NCBI RefSeq assembly: GCF_002009425.1
Contig: NZ_CP019936.1
Location: forward strand, 310,001-374,000
Length of the DNA stretch: 64,000 bases
Direction: 5' to 3'
Source: Thiosocius teredinicola
GTDB taxonomy: Bacteria; Pseudomonadota; Gammaproteobacteria; Chromatiales; Chromatiaceae
How positions within the stretch are numbered: the stretch's first letter is position 1; each line of letters opens with the position of its first letter. A program made the position numbers and the translations under genes. Shown one piece after another: positions 6,449 through 12,818 of this stretch. Under the pieces are notes generated by a model. The model made no database searches. It saw only the letters and a program-made list of their open reading frames with translations, and was not told where the DNA came from.

Positions 6449-8278
6449 TTAGTGCAGGCGCTGGTCCGGCGGTGTCTCGTTGTCGGGCATGACATTGCGC
6501 TGTAGGGCGTCGCTGATCTGCTCCAGCGTGAACGGTTTGGTGACGAAGTCGCTCATGCCTACCTGCCGCGTACGGACCCGGTTGTCGTCGTCTGCATGTG
6601 CTGTCAGCGCAATAATCGGTATCTGGCGCTCGAACCCTTGGTTGCGCTCGTGTGCACGGATACGTCGCGTGGCCTCGTAGCCATCCATGCCCGGCATCTC
6701 GCAGTCCATGAACACGACGTCAAATTCACCGTTGGTGAAGCGCTCAACACAGGCTTGGCCGTCAGCGACCAGTGTGCATGCGCAATTGAGCACCTCCATG
6801 ATGGCCTTGACGACGAACTGGTTGACCGGGTTGTCTTCGGCGATCAATACGCGAATCCGACGGTTGGCGAATATCGCCGGCGTGTGTTTGTGCAGCGGTG
6901 TAGGTTCTTCTTGTGGGATTGGTGCTGAAGGCATCGCGACAGTGAAGGCGAACTGGCTGCCTTCGTTCTGTGTGCTTTCGACTTCGATCGAACCGCCCAT
7001 CTTGCGTACCAGGTCTTGCGACACCGCCAGGCCCAGCCCGGAGCCGCCGTACTGCCGCGTGGTTGAGCCATCTGCCTGCTCGAAGGCCCTGAAGATGCGT
7101 TTCTTGGCATCGGCGGCGATGCCGATGCCTGAATCGGTCACCGCATAGCGGCAGTGAACCGACGAATAGGGCCCCATATGCTGTTCGAGCTCGATGACGA
7201 TAACGCCGCGCTCGGTGAACTTGATCGCGTTCGACAGCAGGTTCAGCAGCACCTGCGTTACGCGCATGGAGTCGCCGAGCACCCAAACGCCGGTTGTGTC
7301 GTCGATACGGGTTTCGAGAATCAGACCTTTCGCTGAAGCCGCATCCTGCATCAGCAGCGCTGCATCGCGCACCGGTTGTGCCGGATCCATGGGTAGCGAT
7401 TCGAGTTGCAGCTTGCCGGCCTGCAGTTTCGAAAAATCCAGAATCTCGTTGATGCGTTGTAACAACAGATCGGCAGACTTCGACATGATGTCGAGATACA
7501 TCGAACGCTTATCCGGATCGTTTGCCTGGGCCAGCATATCGATGGTGCTGATCAATCCGTTCAGCGGTGTACGTAGTTCATGGCTGACCTTGGCAACGAA
7601 CTGGCTTTTTGCACGGTCGGCACTTTCAGCGCTCTTGCGTGCCGCCTCGAGCTCTGACGCGCGCCGCTTGAGCAAGCGGGTGCTGCGCACGGCCGCCCAG
7701 TAACCGAAGTTGAGGTTGTGGCCGACAGAAAGCAGAAAGACGATCTTCGCCGCCAGCAGCATGCCCATGACCATCGCGTTATTGTCGCCCGTCAGCCAGA
7801 ACGCGATCATGCCGGGGATGAGCGCAACGAGAATGTAGGTGCGCTGCAACGGCGGGTGGGTGCTGAGCGTGATCGTGCCGCCGGCAACGATACCCGCCGA
7901 AGCGAAGCTCAACAGCATCGTCGGCCAGCTCGCGTGATAGTGCCAGATCAAAAAGGTGTATAGCGTGCTCCAGGTGCCGACCTGGATCAGGACGGCGGAG
8001 TAATACACCGCTGCCCAGACGCGGGCGCCCCAGGCGGTATAGGCGCGGTCGAACAACAGGCCCAGGCTGAAACGAAAAGCGCCGATCAGGGCCAGTGCGC
8101 CCAGTCCGCTCCAGGTCAGGATCGGCCAGTCGACGACGACCGGTGTAAACAGAACCACGACCGCCCATACGGCGGCGTACAGCATGCTGCCGGTCAGGCC
8201 CTGGCGGGCCAGATCACGGTGCGCCTGTTTGAAATCTTCCGCTTCCAGCGTTACTGCGGGTAATTGTCGATTGAACAT
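6449..8278 (-). CDS. Hybrid sensor histidine kinase/response regulator (copy 1)
   Basis: A 609-residue inner-membrane hybrid kinase. Residues about 28-195 hold six or seven hydrophobic helices. A short linker with charged helices leads to the HisKA domain, with the phosphoacceptor motif VSHELRTPLNG near residue 232. The HATPase domain has the N box (LLSNAIKFTE), GIGIA, the F box and GSGLGLAVS. A C-terminal receiver domain follows, with the phosphoacceptor aspartate in VFMDCEMPGMDG near residue 528 and the conserved lysine in TKPF. There is no HPt or output domain, so phosphate must pass to an unseen partner. The signal is unknown. It is a paralogue of the neighbouring upstream kinase and has its own 275-base upstream gap. 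Confidence 0.92.
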   Translation of the reverse strand: MFNRQLPAVTLEAEDFKQAHRDLARQGLTGSMLYAAVWAVVVLFTPVVVDWPILTWSGLGALALIGAFRFSLGLLFDRAYTAWGARVWAAVYYSAVLIQVGTWSTLYTFLIWHYHASWPTMLLSFASAGIVAGGTITLSTHPPLQRTYILVALIPGMIAFWLTGDNNAMVMGMLLAAKIVFLLSVGHNLNFGYWAAVRSTRLLKRRASELEAARKSAESADRAKSQFVAKVSHELRTPLNGLISTIDMLAQANDPDKRSMYLDIMSKSADLLLQRINEILDFSKLQAGKLQLESLPMDPAQPVRDAALLMQDAASAKGLILETRIDDTTGVWVLGDSMRVTQVLLNLLSNAIKFTERGVIVIELEQHMGPYSSVHCRYAVTDSGIGIAADAKKRIFRAFEQADGSTTRQYGGSGLGLAVSQDLVRKMGGSIEVESTQNEGSQFAFTVAMPSAPIPQEEPTPLHKHTPAIFANRRIRVLIAEDNPVNQFVVKAIMEVLNCACTLVADGQACVERFTNGEFDVVFMDCEMPGMDGYEATRRIRAHERNQGFERQIPIIALTAHADDDNRVRTRQVGMSDFVTKPFTLEQISDALQRNVMPDNETPPDQRLH

Positions 8279-8553
8279 GAGTAGCCGGTGGTCGTTCGAT
8301 CTTGCAGAACGCCGTCAATCATCGCAGAAAATGCGACAAATCACCGCTTCCCCTGGATCCAGGTGCGGATTCGCTCGCAAGATATCCCGCCTGGCCGGGC
8401 TAACACAGCTGCTGCCAGCCGAGTGCGGGGCCTAATCAGTGCCGCCAGGTGCCGTGGGCCTACGCTATCCCCGGCAGGTGAGGGGAAGCAGGTGCAGTGC
8501 CTGTTGTCGGTGAAGGCTGATGATCTGGGAACGCGCAGCGCGCTGTGCGGTGA

Positions 8554-10368
8554 TCAGGCGATCGCCTGCATCGGCCCGTCGGTGCGCAGTGTACGCTCCA
8601 AAGCGGCGCTGAGCTCTTCGAGCGTAAACGGTTTGGTGACGAAATCGTTCATCCCGACTTCGCTGGTCTTGCGCCGATTGGTTTCGTCCGCATGCGCGGT
8701 CAACGCGATAATCGGTATTGGCACGCGATTGTCGGAGCGTTCAAGTGACCGGATGCGTCGGGTCGCCTCGTAGCCATCCATGACCGGCATCTCGCAGTCC
8801 ATCAGAACGACGTCGTACGATTCGTTTTGCACGCGCTCGACGCACGCCTGACCGTCCGCAACGATCGTGAAGGCGCAGTCGAGTGTCTCCATCAGGTCCT
8901 CAATGATGAACTGGTTGATCGAGTTGTCTTCTGCAATCAATACCCGCAGGCGTGGCGCAGTCTTGATTTCGGTTCCGCCGTCTTCGGCAATTGTGCGGGT
9001 TTCGTTGTGCATCTCGGCAACAGGCAGCAGCAATGTGAAGCTGAAACAGCTGCCTTCGCCGGGTGTGCTTTCGACCTCGATCAGGCCGCCCATCTTCTGC
9101 ACCAGGTCTTGAGAAACCGCCAGACCCAATCCTGTACCCCCATACTGCCTGGTGGTCGAACTATCGGCCTGTTCGAACGATCGGAAGATGCGGTCTTTTG
9201 CATCGGGCGCGATGCCGATACCGGTGTCGGTAACGGTGAACCGGCAGGATACGCTGCCGTTCTCTATTTCGCCCTGCTGGAAAGCGACGACGATGGTGCC
9301 CTGCTGGGTAAACTTGATCGCGTTGGATATCAGGTTCAACAGGACTTGGGTGAGGCGCATCTCGTCGATGCTCACCCATGCGTGATCGGGCCGACTGATG
9401 TCGACCTGGATCTCGAGCCCCTTGTCGGCAGCCGCATCCTGCATCAGCGCTACGGCATCGGCCACGGCGGCGCTGGGATCGGCGGCGACCGGTTCGAGTT
9501 CCAGCTTGCCGGCCTGCATCTTGGAGAAGTCGAGGATCTCGTTGATGCGTTGCAGCAGCATGTCGGCCGACTTCGACATGATCGACAGGTACTTGGTGCG
9601 CTTGGCCGGGTCGTCCGTTCGACCCATCATGCCGATCGTACTGATCAGGCCGTTGAGCGGCGTACGCAATTCATGGCTTACCTTGGCGACGAACTGCCCT
9701 TTGGCGCGATCTGCACTCTCCGCCTTCTCGCGGGCGACCAGCAGTTCTTCTGCGCGTCGCTTGAGCAGGCGCGTGCTGCGCATGCTGTCCCAATAGCCGC
9801 GATCGAGCTTTTTGCCGATCGAGACCAGAAAGAAGATATACACCGCAACCAAGAACCCGAGCATCATCAAGTTATCGTTGCCGCTCGCCAAACCCGCCAC
9901 AGCGGTCGGCACCAACGCCGCGAAGATATAACCGCGCTGCAGCTTCGGGTGGGTGCTGAGCGCAACTACGCCTCCGGCGATGACGCCTGCGCTGGCGAAG
10001 CTGATCATCATGGCAGGCCAACCGAGTTCGAACTGCCAGATCAGAAAGCACGACAGGCCGCCCAGAGTGGCAGCCTGCACCAGCACCACCGTGTAGTAGG
10101 TAGCGGCCCAACGCTGTGTATCGCGAAAGTAGGTGTTGTCGAACCAGAACCCGAGCGAGAACCGTAGGGTGCCGGTGATCACGAAGATGCCGAGCCCTAA
10201 CCAGGTAATGTTGGGCCAGGTTGTCGCGACGGGCGTTGTCGTGGTGACCAGCAACCAGATAAGCGCGTACAGGAAACTGCCCGGCAGACCCTGTTGACCG
10301 AGGTCGCGGTGGGCGTGTGCATAGTCTTCGGCTTCTAATGTCACATCTGCAGGTTGTTGATGCGGCAT
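8554..10368 (-). CDS. Hybrid sensor histidine kinase/response regulator (copy 2)
   Basis: A 604-residue paralogue of the downstream kinase with the same domain order: a hydrophobic multi-helix region (about 25-190), HisKA with VSHELRTPLNG, HATPase with NAIKFTQ, GIGIA and GTGLGLAVS, and a receiver domain with VLMDCEMPVMDG and TKPF. The two align throughout, including the shared VTLEAED N-terminus. Divergence is greatest in the membrane domain and in the linker before the receiver, as expected after duplication with a change of signal. I use ATG 10368 because it matches the N-terminal offset of the paralogue; a TTG two codons upstream is possible. The gene is divergent from the hydrogenase small-subunit gene. 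Confidence 0.92.
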   Translation of the reverse strand: MPHQQPADVTLEAEDYAHAHRDLGQQGLPGSFLYALIWLLVTTTTPVATTWPNITWLGLGIFVITGTLRFSLGFWFDNTYFRDTQRWAATYYTVVLVQAATLGGLSCFLIWQFELGWPAMMISFASAGVIAGGVVALSTHPKLQRGYIFAALVPTAVAGLASGNDNLMMLGFLVAVYIFFLVSIGKKLDRGYWDSMRSTRLLKRRAEELLVAREKAESADRAKGQFVAKVSHELRTPLNGLISTIGMMGRTDDPAKRTKYLSIMSKSADMLLQRINEILDFSKMQAGKLELEPVAADPSAAVADAVALMQDAAADKGLEIQVDISRPDHAWVSIDEMRLTQVLLNLISNAIKFTQQGTIVVAFQQGEIENGSVSCRFTVTDTGIGIAPDAKDRIFRSFEQADSSTTRQYGGTGLGLAVSQDLVQKMGGLIEVESTPGEGSCFSFTLLLPVAEMHNETRTIAEDGGTEIKTAPRLRVLIAEDNSINQFIIEDLMETLDCAFTIVADGQACVERVQNESYDVVLMDCEMPVMDGYEATRRIRSLERSDNRVPIPIIALTAHADETNRRKTSEVGMNDFVTKPFTLEELSAALERTLRTDGPMQAIA

Positions 10369-10535
10369 GGTCAAGACGCGGTTGCTGAATTCTTGAACGT
10401 ATCGGCTGATAGGCAGGGAAAGTTAGTGCGGGCGGGCCGTGAAACGCTATGAATTGACCTGGAACAACGGCCGTTCTTGACGTGGCGCGACTTTGCTTCA
10501 CATTCTGGGAAGCGGAGTTTTTTTGGTGCAGCGCG

Positions 10536-11702
10536 ATGCATGCCCATGGAGATTTTTATTCGTATCTGCGTACCCGGGGGGTCAGCCGTCGCGGGTTCCT
10601 GAAGTATTGCGCCGGGCTGGTCAGCCTGCTCGCACTGCCGGGCAGCGCGACCGGACGGATCGCCGAAGCGCTGGCGGGGCGCCGCACGCCGCTGGTCTGG
10701 TTGTCACTGCAGGCGTGTACCGGGTGTACCGAGTCGCTGCTGCGCTCCTACGCGCCATCCGTCGATACCCTGATCCTTGACTATTTCTCGCTCGACTATC
10801 ACCACACCTTACAGGCGGCAGCCGGTGACGCGGCCGAAGCCGCACGTTCGGCTGCGCTGACGGATGGGGGTTATCTGCTGGTTGTCGATGGGTCGGTTTC
10901 CAGTGGGCAACACCTGAACTGCTCGACGATCGCCGGTAGATCGGGCATGGAGGTGTTGGCGGAAACGGTGGAGCAGGCGGCCGCGGTGATCGCCGTCGGT
11001 TCGTGCGCGGCGTTCGGCGGGTTACCTGCCGCAAACCCCAACCCCACAACCGCACTTGCGGTCGAACAACTGATGGCGCAGGGCAGTATCCCGCGTCGCC
11101 CTCTGGTCAATGTGCCGGGTTGTCCACCGTTGCCGGAGGCGATCACCGGCACTTTGGCGCACTTCATCGCATTCGGTCGTCTGCCCGCGCTGGACGCGTT
11201 GGCGCGTCCATTGTCGATCTATGGCCGCACCTTGCACGACCGTTGTTCCCGCATTCACTTTTTCTACGCGGGCCAATTCGCCGAATCGTTTGACGATGAG
11301 GGCGCCCGAAAAGGTTGGTGCTTGTACAAGCTGGGGTGCAGGGGGCCGACCACGCACAATGCCTGTATGACCCAGAAGTGGAACGGAGGCACGAGTTCGC
11401 CGGTGGACGCAGGACACCCGTGTATCGGTTGCTCGGAACCCGACTTCTGGGATGCCGGCGGATTCTATCGGCAAAAACTGTCTACCGGCCCCGGTGTTTC
11501 GACGACCGAGGAGGCATCTCGCGGGCGGGCACTGTTCGATGATCAATGCGTTTATTGCCATGAGCCCGACGCAACCGATCTGAGCGTCGAGCCGACCGAA
11601 CTGCGGGCGACCTATGAACGACGCGGCGGACGTGCGCATCGCGCCGAGCTCAGCGACGAGGAGTGGTCCGACCTGATGAAATTTCTGGAGACAACCCGAT
11701 GA
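10536..11702 (+). CDS. [NiFe]-hydrogenase small subunit fused to a C-terminal c-type cytochrome domain
   Basis: A 388-residue exported iron-sulfur protein. A Tat signal with SRRGFLK lies at residues 17-23. All cluster ligands of periplasmic hydrogenase small subunits are visible: CTGC (61-64), GSC and GCPP for the proximal [4Fe-4S]; LHDRC with two later cysteines in WCLYKLGC for the distal cluster; and NAC with HPCIGC for the medial cluster. The usual C-terminal membrane anchor is replaced by about 59 residues with a CVYCH heme c motif (338-342). Family members pass electrons from a NiFe large subunit to cytochromes. No large subunit, maturation gene or Isp1/Isp2 gene is present here. Start ATG 10536 places the Tat motif correctly; the longer frame from 10482 adds no signal. 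The stop overlaps the next gene (ATGA). Confidence 0.88.
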   Translation: MHAHGDFYSYLRTRGVSRRGFLKYCAGLVSLLALPGSATGRIAEALAGRRTPLVWLSLQACTGCTESLLRSYAPSVDTLILDYFSLDYHHTLQAAAGDAAEAARSAALTDGGYLLVVDGSVSSGQHLNCSTIAGRSGMEVLAETVEQAAAVIAVGSCAAFGGLPAANPNPTTALAVEQLMAQGSIPRRPLVNVPGCPPLPEAITGTLAHFIAFGRLPALDALARPLSIYGRTLHDRCSRIHFFYAGQFAESFDDEGARKGWCLYKLGCRGPTTHNACMTQKWNGGTSSPVDAGHPCIGCSEPDFWDAGGFYRQKLSTGPGVSTTEEASRGRALFDDQCVYCHEPDATDLSVEPTELRATYERRGGRAHRAELSDEEWSDLMKFLETTR

Positions 11703-12007
11703 GGTGGGTAAGACACGTCATCTACATCGTTCTGCTTGCCGCTGCGGTCACCGTCAACAGCGCACCAAGCGATGCGCCGAATGCGGAAGTCTTTTCGCGG
11801 CATGACGAGAACCGCGACGGATTTGTCGATCGGCGCGAGTACTATCGATTTCACCAACGTATGCGGCGGCATCAGGCACGCAACCGTCGGTCGTTTCATG
11901 TGTACGACTTCGATGACATCGATGTCGATCGCAATGGCTTGATCGATCGCGATGAGTTGCTGCAACGACTGCACCGGCGCCCGCGGCGCGGCGATCTGAG
12001 TCGTTAG
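11699..12007 (+). CDS. Small secreted EF-hand protein
   Basis: A 102-residue protein with a hydrophobic N-terminal signal (about residues 5-20, probable cleavage near NSA). It has two complete EF-hand calcium loops: D36-N38-D40-G41-D44-E47 and D75-D77-N79-G80-D83-E86. The segment between and after the loops is rich in arginine and histidine. It is probably periplasmic and binds calcium. Its ATG overlaps the TGA of the hydrogenase small-subunit gene by four bases (ATGA), which points to coupled translation and a shared role. The function is otherwise unknown; a structural or assembly partner of the small subunit is an inference from context. Confidence 0.82.
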   Translation: MRWVRHVIYIVLLAAAVTVNSAPSDAPNAEVFSRHDENRDGFVDRREYYRFHQRMRRHQARNRRSFHVYDFDDIDVDRNGLIDRDELLQRLHRRPRRGDLSR

Positions 12008-12104: not shown

Positions 12105-12818
12105 ATGGCAAAACGCGCAAAACCTCGTCGGACGTTCATGCAACGATTGCGACGTCTGCTCGGCATCTTGCTGTTGATCGCAATCGCCGGTTCCGTCGGC
12201 GTCGTGTTGCTGTTTCGCTGGGTCGATCCACCGTATTCCGCGGTTATGTTATGGCGCTACGCCAGCGAGGGTGGACCGCAGCACCAGGTATGGGTTCCGT
12301 TGAGCGAGATCCACCCGGGCATGGCGCTGGCGGTTGTTGCAGCGGAAGATCAGCGTTTTCCCGTGCATTGGGGATTCGATACGGACGAAATACTCGCAGC
12401 GGTTCAGGATCACCTCGATGGTGGCAAGTTGCGCGGTGCCAGCACGATTTCGCAACAGGTCGCACGCAACCTTTTCCTGTGGCAGGGGCGCAGCTTTGTC
12501 CGTAAGGGGCTGGAGGTGTACTTCACCGGACTGATCGAAGCGATGTGGCCAAAGCAACGCATACTCGAGATGTATCTGAACTTCGCAGAGTTGGGCGAGC
12601 GCACCTTCGGCGTTGCCGCTGCGAGTGACCATTACTTCGACGTTGATCCCGGGCGGCTGACTGACCGGCAGGCGGCGTTGCTTGCCGCGGTACTGCCAAA
12701 CCCGATCCGCTATCGCGCCGATCGGCCATCGGATTACGTGCGACAAAGACAGGCCTGGATTCTCAGGCAGATGCGCAACCTCGGTGGCCCCGGTTATCTG
12801 GGCGAGATGCTTGATTGA
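12105..12818 (+). CDS. mtgA: Monofunctional biosynthetic peptidoglycan transglycosylase
   Basis: A 237-residue GT51 enzyme that polymerises lipid II into glycan strands. A single N-terminal membrane helix lies at about residues 18-37. The catalytic glutamate sits in VAAEDQRFPVHWG (around residue 80), followed by GASTISQQVARNLFLW and a second acidic motif in the KQRILEMYLNFAELG segment. The length is typical of MtgA and there is no transpeptidase domain. It lies about 100 bases after the EF-hand gene and is followed by a strong hairpin shared with a convergent gene. Confidence 0.95.
   Translation: MAKRAKPRRTFMQRLRRLLGILLLIAIAGSVGVVLLFRWVDPPYSAVMLWRYASEGGPQHQVWVPLSEIHPGMALAVVAAEDQRFPVHWGFDTDEILAAVQDHLDGGKLRGASTISQQVARNLFLWQGRSFVRKGLEVYFTGLIEAMWPKQRILEMYLNFAELGERTFGVAAASDHYFDVDPGRLTDRQAALLAAVLPNPIRYRADRPSDYVRQRQAWILRQMRNLGGPGYLGEMLD

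Follow-up and report, generated by a model that had tools for sequence, protein, structure and literature searches.

A lone [NiFe]-hydrogenase small subunit with a heme c tail and an EF-hand neighbour is conserved across nine genera and may serve an Isp-type hydrogenase

The window analysed here, a stretch of 64,000 nucleotides from Thiosocius teredinicola, carries a gene for a lone [NiFe]-hydrogenase small subunit with a C-terminal heme c tail, which is directly followed by a gene for a secreted two-EF-hand protein (Table 1). This unit is real and conserved. It was found at no fewer than 16 loci in at least 15 genomes, representing nine genera and six families according to the taxon labels supplied with the genome samples. 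Since the tail, a His residue within it and the EF-hand neighbour recur in other genera at 52–58% identity, the unit is more than a chance arrangement. The PMC literature searched, a collection outside which most subscription journals lie, gave no description of a lone small subunit with a heme tail. The large and small subunits of [NiFe] hydrogenases are usually regarded as one fixed pair. We propose, at about an even chance of being right, that the lone protein is an alternative, soluble small subunit, which would pair with HynL and pass electrons to its own heme c rather than to Isp1/Isp2, helped by the EF-hand protein.

Table 1 Features of the two-gene unit (positions refer to the 64-kb window)
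Feature	Position	Strand	Remark
Lone [NiFe]-hydrogenase small subunit with C-terminal heme c tail, 388 aa	10536..11702	+	
Tat signal region, SRRGFLK at residues 17-23	10536..10676	+	TIGR01409 16.0 bits; cut-off 16.7
Small-subunit core, residues 49-312, ligands of three Fe–S clusters	10680..11471	+	
Distal-cluster loop, residues 232-246, HDRCYRRP to HERCSRYH type	11229..11273	+	HynS-fixed sites switched
Monoheme cytochrome c-like tail, residues 322-388, where HynS has a C-terminal hydrophobic stretch	11499..11699	+	
CVYCH heme attachment motif, residues 338-342	11547..11561	+	
His368, proposed second axial heme ligand	11637..11639	+	invariant; ligand role putative
Secreted two-EF-hand protein, 102 aa, 4-nt overlap with small-subunit gene	11699..12007	+	signal peptide by eye
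EF-hand loop 1 (DENRDGFVDRRE)	11804..11839	+	boundaries by eye
EF-hand loop 2 (DVDRNGLIDRDE)	11921..11956	+	boundaries by eye

The lone small subunit

With a score of 361.6 against TIGR00391 (cut-off 179.5) the protein belongs to the group 1 [NiFe]-hydrogenase small-subunit family, and it also exceeds the Pfam cut-offs for PF01058 (95 bits) and PF14720 (107 bits). Its length is counted from an ATG; a second in-frame start, GTG, lies 54 nt upstream. Eleven Fe–S ligands (C61, C64, C157, C196, C277, C296, C299, H234, C237, C262 and C268), which we assign to the proximal, medial and distal clusters from general knowledge, are invariant in the alignment of all 16 lone-subunit homologues. The Arg pair of the Tat signal is invariant in a 9-row alignment and was seen by eye in the remaining seven homologues. 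The earlier note on this DNA, made from the sequence alone, had described a small subunit with all Fe–S ligands, a Tat signal and a CVYCH motif intact, and the family matches together with the motif check bear this out. An AF2 prediction from two sequences gave a mean pLDDT of 36; this monomer model was unusable and was left out of the analysis.

Residue 60 (window 10713-10715), directly before the first proximal-cluster Cys C61, is Ala in the window copy. Glu is found at this position in 15 of the 16 lone subunits, in 36/36 HynS and in 7/7 proteins of the HupS/HybO types. A role of this Glu in proton transfer is not addressed in the sections of PMC3325256 that were available.

The loss of Glu60 would fit a decaying duplicate or an assembly artefact without function, and so would the core identity of the window copy to the other lone subunits (63%, compared to a mean of 70% among those) and the decay of the EF-hand neighbour at one locus, L070. 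Against this explanation, which was already disfavoured and is hardly credible, the eleven ligands, the heme motif (CxYCH) and the tail His are kept in 16/16 homologues from nine genera, and the host genome is a single contig of 4.79 Mb rated 100% complete.

Distribution of the two-gene unit

Among 210 genomes of the order, at least eight gave matches to the window protein that run through the tail, at nine or more loci, while the other matches listed end at residue 331 of 388 or earlier, like HynS. A profile of the tail revealed seven additional carriers among 369 genomes of the class; five weak hits covering only the first 22–43 columns were excluded from the count. Applied to 398 genomes of the phylum, a sample whose share outside the class is not stated, the profile found the host genome only (1/398). 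One of the relatives is the Gammaproteobacteria MAG HKST-UBA178. The draft genome G017 harbours two complete copies of the module, at L049 8307-9906 and L050 5770-7348.

Transport of the unit as cargo of mobile elements was considered and rejected. No match through the tail occurred in 12 plasmid records (E limit 1e-60), of which ten end by residue 312 and two at residues 320 and 328. Three records from phage collections, one of them a Salmonella contig, all end by residue 312.

Heme c tail

When the last 100 residues of the window protein were scanned alone, they scored above the cut-off for PF00034 (25.4 bits; cut-off 21.3) and below that for PF13442 (22.8 bits; cut-off 27). Both families were matched at E ≤0.01 by each of the nine tails, out of 16, that were scanned. 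CxYCH and one later His are invariant at 16/16 loci. By eye, the tail takes the place of the C-terminal hydrophobic stretch of HynS in every one of the 16 lone subunits; a short cytochrome-like domain instead of the membrane anchor had been noticed before, and the tail of about 65 residues, with no anchor, agrees with this description.

Met serves as the second heme ligand in most cytochromes c of class I. There is no conserved Met among the 16 aligned tails, which thus lack the usual class I ligand, and the invariant tail His may stand in for it. The tail heme is probably bis-His and, for that reason, probably of low potential, which would suit H2.

The EF-hand protein

The EF-hand gene lies directly downstream of the lone subunit gene on the same strand and is intact at 15 of 16 loci, with gaps between −4 and +57 nt. 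The coupling by an ATGA overlap, to which the earlier note had pointed, applies to the window and to one relative (L073), where the genes share 4 nt; it does not apply elsewhere, the spacing being +2 to +57 nt. Its description of the neighbour as an exported protein with two EF-hands agrees with our reading, since both loops were found and the N-terminus is hydrophobic. PF00036, PF13202, PF13405 and PF13499 were matched by 9/9 neighbours scanned, and six others were read in the alignment only. The last 30 residues are basic (pI 8.5 or more) in 12 of the 15 intact proteins. At L070, about 8500-9130 on the minus strand, the EF-hand gene has decayed to a remnant with stops next to an intact heme-tailed subunit.

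Other small secreted EF-hand proteins of Proteobacteria likewise have two EF-hand loops and a hydrophobic stretch at the N-terminus. The neighbours nevertheless form a subfamily of their own. A profile built from the first nine of them and run on 204 genomes of the order reached E below 1e-30 only for the nine proteins that built it, all beside heme-tailed subunits, and the next match (5e-14) falls into the range of general EF-hand proteins. The search for fusions of a small subunit with a heme motif, which had been proposed together with a check for co-occurring EF-hand proteins, yielded at least 16 fusion loci with a largely constant partner. Conservation of this neighbour had been named beforehand as a point on which the idea of a module could fail; it was found, with no other strong profile match in the 204 genomes.

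Relationship to HynS

The best PDB match of the window protein is HydA 3myr, which is the A. vinosum hydrogenase (PMC3325256, in part). The alignment and the tree comprise 16 lone subunits, seven proteins of the HupS/HybO types and 36 HynS, of which the order search supplied 22 and the host and the other carrier genomes 14. The lone subunits form one group with a moderate ultrafast bootstrap of 82, and this group branches off beside HynS or inside it and away from the HupS/HybO types. By sequence, the lone gene represents an additional HynS paralogue that has diverged, its product being 62% identical to the HynS of the host genome.

Of 148 sites that are ≥95% fixed in HynS, 103 are retained in ≥90% of the lone subunits, a conservation of the core that is also expected from folding and cluster binding alone. 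Ten sites (52, 80, 188, 233, 235, 238, 240, 241, 246 and 279) are switched, meaning that fewer than half of the lone subunits keep the HynS residue. Six of these ten fall into residues 233-246, the loop of the distal ligands H234 and C237 (hypergeometric P = 4e-5 for a window of 20 residues, 230-249, containing 14 of the 148 fixed sites). As this window was picked after viewing the data, a permutation scan over any window was applied, which allows for the choice and reached such clustering in 8/5000 cases. P241, fixed in 36/36 HynS, is His in 14 of the 16 lone subunits. The four proximal ligands are all retained in 16/16 lone subunits. Counting against the HynL pairing proposed here, two more of the switched sites are close to proximal ligands, site 52 being 9 residues away from C61 and site 188 (K to R) 8 residues away from C196, and the Ala60 of the window copy counts against it as well.

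Electrons leave the enzyme at the distal cluster, and a re-modelled distal loop would therefore fit a new exit via heme c. In the parts of PMC4307346 that deal with it, the distal surface patch is treated as a docking surface.

Hydrogenases in the host genome

Neither PF00374, the large-subunit family, nor tblastn with the HynL, Isp1 and Isp2 of the host itself (E 1e-10) gave any match in the 64 kb of the window. Elsewhere the host genome encodes several [NiFe] large subunits. With the window protein as query four other small subunits were found (62, 45, 35 and 34% identity), all of them encoded next to a large subunit; this search would miss more distant small subunits from other hydrogenase groups. 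The lone gene is the fifth small subunit detected and has no large subunit nearby. The 45% homologue is of the HupS type. The 62% homologue, HynS, is located at 3.09 Mb, which is 2.77 Mb from the window along the contig, or about 2.0 Mb the other way if the contig is circular. It is part of a hynS-isp1-isp2-hynL operon (L014) encoding an Isp1 of 217 aa, an Isp2 of 450 aa with Fer4 and CCG domains and a HynL scoring 786 bits, and hypB- and hypD-type genes adjoin this operon.

The earlier statement that no large subunit or Isp gene accompanies the lone gene thus stands for the 64-kb neighbourhood and does not extend to the genome as a whole, where the suggested search for a large subunit and hyp genes recovered both. 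A hydrogenase-free host is ruled out by the hyn operon and the further hydrogenases.

The same holds for the neighbourhoods of the relatives. PF00374 found no match within 120 kb on the contig of the lone gene at any of the 16 loci, several of these contigs being short (10–23 kb), and tblastn found no hynL, isp1 or isp2 beside it in the 10–64 kb of sequence around each locus (only 0.5 kb on one side of L053). A large subunit close by was thereby ruled out, and none of the lone genes is part of an Isp-type operon.

Co-occurrence with the hyn operon

At least part of hynS-isp1-isp2-hynL is present in every carrier genome (15/15), with HynL in 14, HynS in 14 and isp2 in all 15. The genomes without HynS (G086) or without HynL (G416) have the operon cut by contig ends. 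In G018 and G090 a contig end likewise cuts the operon and the rest lies on another contig; the HynL of G090, being on that other contig, was counted from its PF00374 score. In the class sample all eight carriers are hyn-positive, compared to 44 of 369 genomes overall (P = 2e-8 by genome, 5e-6 by genus, 4e-5 by genus without the host's own). The 44 comprise 43 genomes with a HynL of at least 62% identity, a line drawn after viewing the list, and G416, which was accepted by hynS-isp1-isp2 and was checked specially because it is a carrier. Without G416, seven of eight carriers are among 43 hyn-positive genomes (P = 1e-6), and a looser tally of 53 hyn-positive genomes also includes seven of eight (P = 6e-6). 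Co-occurrence of this kind is expected of a HynL-dependent protein; it is also expected if the lone gene arose from hynS and was simply inherited along with it, and the distances among lone subunits and among HynS are indeed correlated (Mantel r 0.71, 0/5000 permutations).

A reading to which we give a smaller, though still appreciable, chance is that of a stand-alone periplasmic Fe–S/heme carrier, a small-subunit fold working without a NiFe subunit and gated or docked by the EF-hand protein. The absence of a large subunit beside the 16 loci, with those on the same contig at least 120 kb away, would be explained by it; the dedicated EF-hand partner and the separate location argue for an independent unit, and the conserved Glu60 next to the proximal cluster is missing from the window copy. 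The invariance of the four proximal ligands speaks against such a carrier, in which a cluster facing the NiFe site would be needless, and in the class sample the lone gene occurs only where hyn exists. In its more specific form, as a free-standing calcium-gated periplasmic wire of three Fe–S clusters and heme c with the EF-hand protein as switch, the fold without a NiFe partner is unlikely. Were it to work without a large subunit, this would to our knowledge be the first such use of the small-subunit fold. This second option of the earlier note is the less favoured one. Its first, a partner encoded elsewhere, gains from the HynL and maturation genes found elsewhere and from the presence of hyn genes in all carriers.

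That this partner is a different large subunit, HupL or one of the cytoplasmic type, is very improbable. Such proteins are at hand in the host, where a HupSL-type pair and further large subunits are encoded. However, HynL is the only large subunit above 700 bits in six of the 15 carriers (G017, G018, G086, G334, G346 and G566). For G086 this count is to be read with care, as the draft contains part of a small subunit with 45% identity and another large subunit may be missing there; in the other five all remaining PF00374 stretches score below 62 bits each. We take the starts of L106, L107, L110 and L112 to resemble cytoplasmic-type large subunits and those of L111 and L113 to resemble HupK, leaving L108 and L109 unassigned. 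In addition, the sequence of the lone subunit is closest to HynS, and its Tat signal would be unsuited to a cytoplasmic partner.

Proposed function and known systems

In the preferred reading, pairing with HynL, the lone gene would descend from an ancient duplication of the HynSL small subunit (Isp-type, group 1e), and its product would have become an interchangeable electron outlet. HynL lacks a signal of its own and would be exported to the periplasm with the Tat signal of the lone subunit, which would stand in for HynS. Electrons would pass from the NiFe site in HynL through the proximal, medial and distal clusters to the covalent heme c and from there to a soluble periplasmic acceptor, which would replace the membrane module Isp1/Isp2. 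As the lone subunit has no anchor, the resulting enzyme would be soluble. The EF-hand protein would act as a dedicated periplasmic partner, binding or stabilising the tail or the distal face in a Ca2+-dependent manner. We infer the HynL pairing, the heme loading, the His ligation, the electron direction and the role of calcium from the comparisons described above. If this is true, the same catalytic subunit can be connected to the membrane or, alternatively, to soluble acceptors in the periplasm.

The closest known proteins are HynS/HydS (A. vinosum 3myr; Thiocapsa hynS-isp1-isp2-hynL), which share with the lone subunit the fold family, the Tat signal, the eleven ligands and about 62% identity. 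The lone subunit differs by its heme c tail, the missing C-terminal hydrophobic stretch, the changed distal loop, the EF-hand neighbour and the lack of adjoining hynL, isp1 and isp2. Group 1e, the Isp-type [NiFe] hydrogenases, is linked primarily to sulfur respiration in the part of PMC5037454 that covers it. For Thiocapsa, the relevant sections of PMC10892978 describe hydSL with isp1 and isp2 in between as well as hup, hupUV and two sets of hox genes, and name no lone small subunit. The portions of PMC7787665 and PMC11636981 on symbiont group 1e hydrogenases mention standard subunits only, and in the passages of PMC10052568, PMC4794192 and PMC7306483 that share terms with our search these occur in unrelated contexts only.

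An engineered counterpart exists. According to the relevant parts of PMC4307346, changes in the distal patch of the Alteromonas macleodii hydrogenase and fusion of a ferredoxin to the truncated C-terminus of its small subunit raised the activity with dithionite as donor but not with methyl viologen. As in the lone subunit, a C-terminal carrier replaces the tail and the surroundings of the distal cluster are substituted; the A. macleodii protein is a laboratory construct with a ferredoxin, whereas the lone subunit is natural, carries a heme c motif and is encoded apart from the large subunit. It could offer a natural model for engineered fusions of small subunits and carriers such as those in PMC4307346.

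Over its C-terminal half L050, one of the lone subunits, resembles 3myr and membrane-bound types more closely than Desulfovibrio. The periplasmic [NiFe] hydrogenase of Desulfovibrio is soluble and delivers electrons to cytochrome c3, its large subunit gene lying next door, and we take 1h2a to be a Desulfovibrio structure. The small subunit has no fused heme, unlike the lone subunit; its TVHEQCPR motif (1h2a; D. africanus, Table 1 of PMC4307346) resembles the distal loop of the lone subunit. This likeness was set aside as it is confined to a short motif and 3myr ranks first in the comparisons.

Genomic neighbourhood and upstream sites

A conserved wider neighbourhood does not exist around the 16 loci, the EF-hand gene being the only widely shared neighbour. 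In the neighbourhood grouping it clustered at nine loci of six genera; at the others, overlapping frames masked it or it had diverged. In the window two tandem, similar ORFs on the minus strand (6449-8278 and 8554-10374), which we take to be membrane histidine kinase-receiver hybrids, precede the lone gene, the nearer one in divergent orientation. A similar gene also occurs near L069, though not at the same distance. Immediately after the module lies a presumably monofunctional peptidoglycan transglycosylase-like gene (12105-12818, plus strand), for which no counterpart was grouped among the neighbours of the other loci.

FNR-like palindromes were searched with a consensus from general knowledge. 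Sites with at most one mismatch occur upstream of three of the 16 lone genes, compared to 0.2 in shuffles and 0/152 neighbouring genes; with up to two mismatches the numbers are 10/16 and 25/152. The best site of the window itself has two mismatches and is not distinctive, as 25/152 control genes have the same or better. Upstream of HynS genes no site with up to one mismatch was present (0/36), and shared control of the lone gene and HynS is therefore unsupported. Two other patterns gave no lead.

These palindromes could be taken to favour a regulator or decoy, which would sense redox state or H2, or tie up HynL or maturation factors under anoxia, and known H2 sensors are indeed hydrogenase paralogues. 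Those sensors are devoid of Tat export and heme tails, however, and no kinase or receiver gene occupies a conserved place near the 16 loci, so we regard this role as improbable. H2-sensing hydrogenases of the HupUV type are cytoplasmic and have no Tat signal; the lone subunit has one and therefore falls outside that type. For some relatives the upstream sequences suggest anaerobic control: the FNR-like palindrome is perfect in L052 and L071 and deviates by one mismatch in L051.
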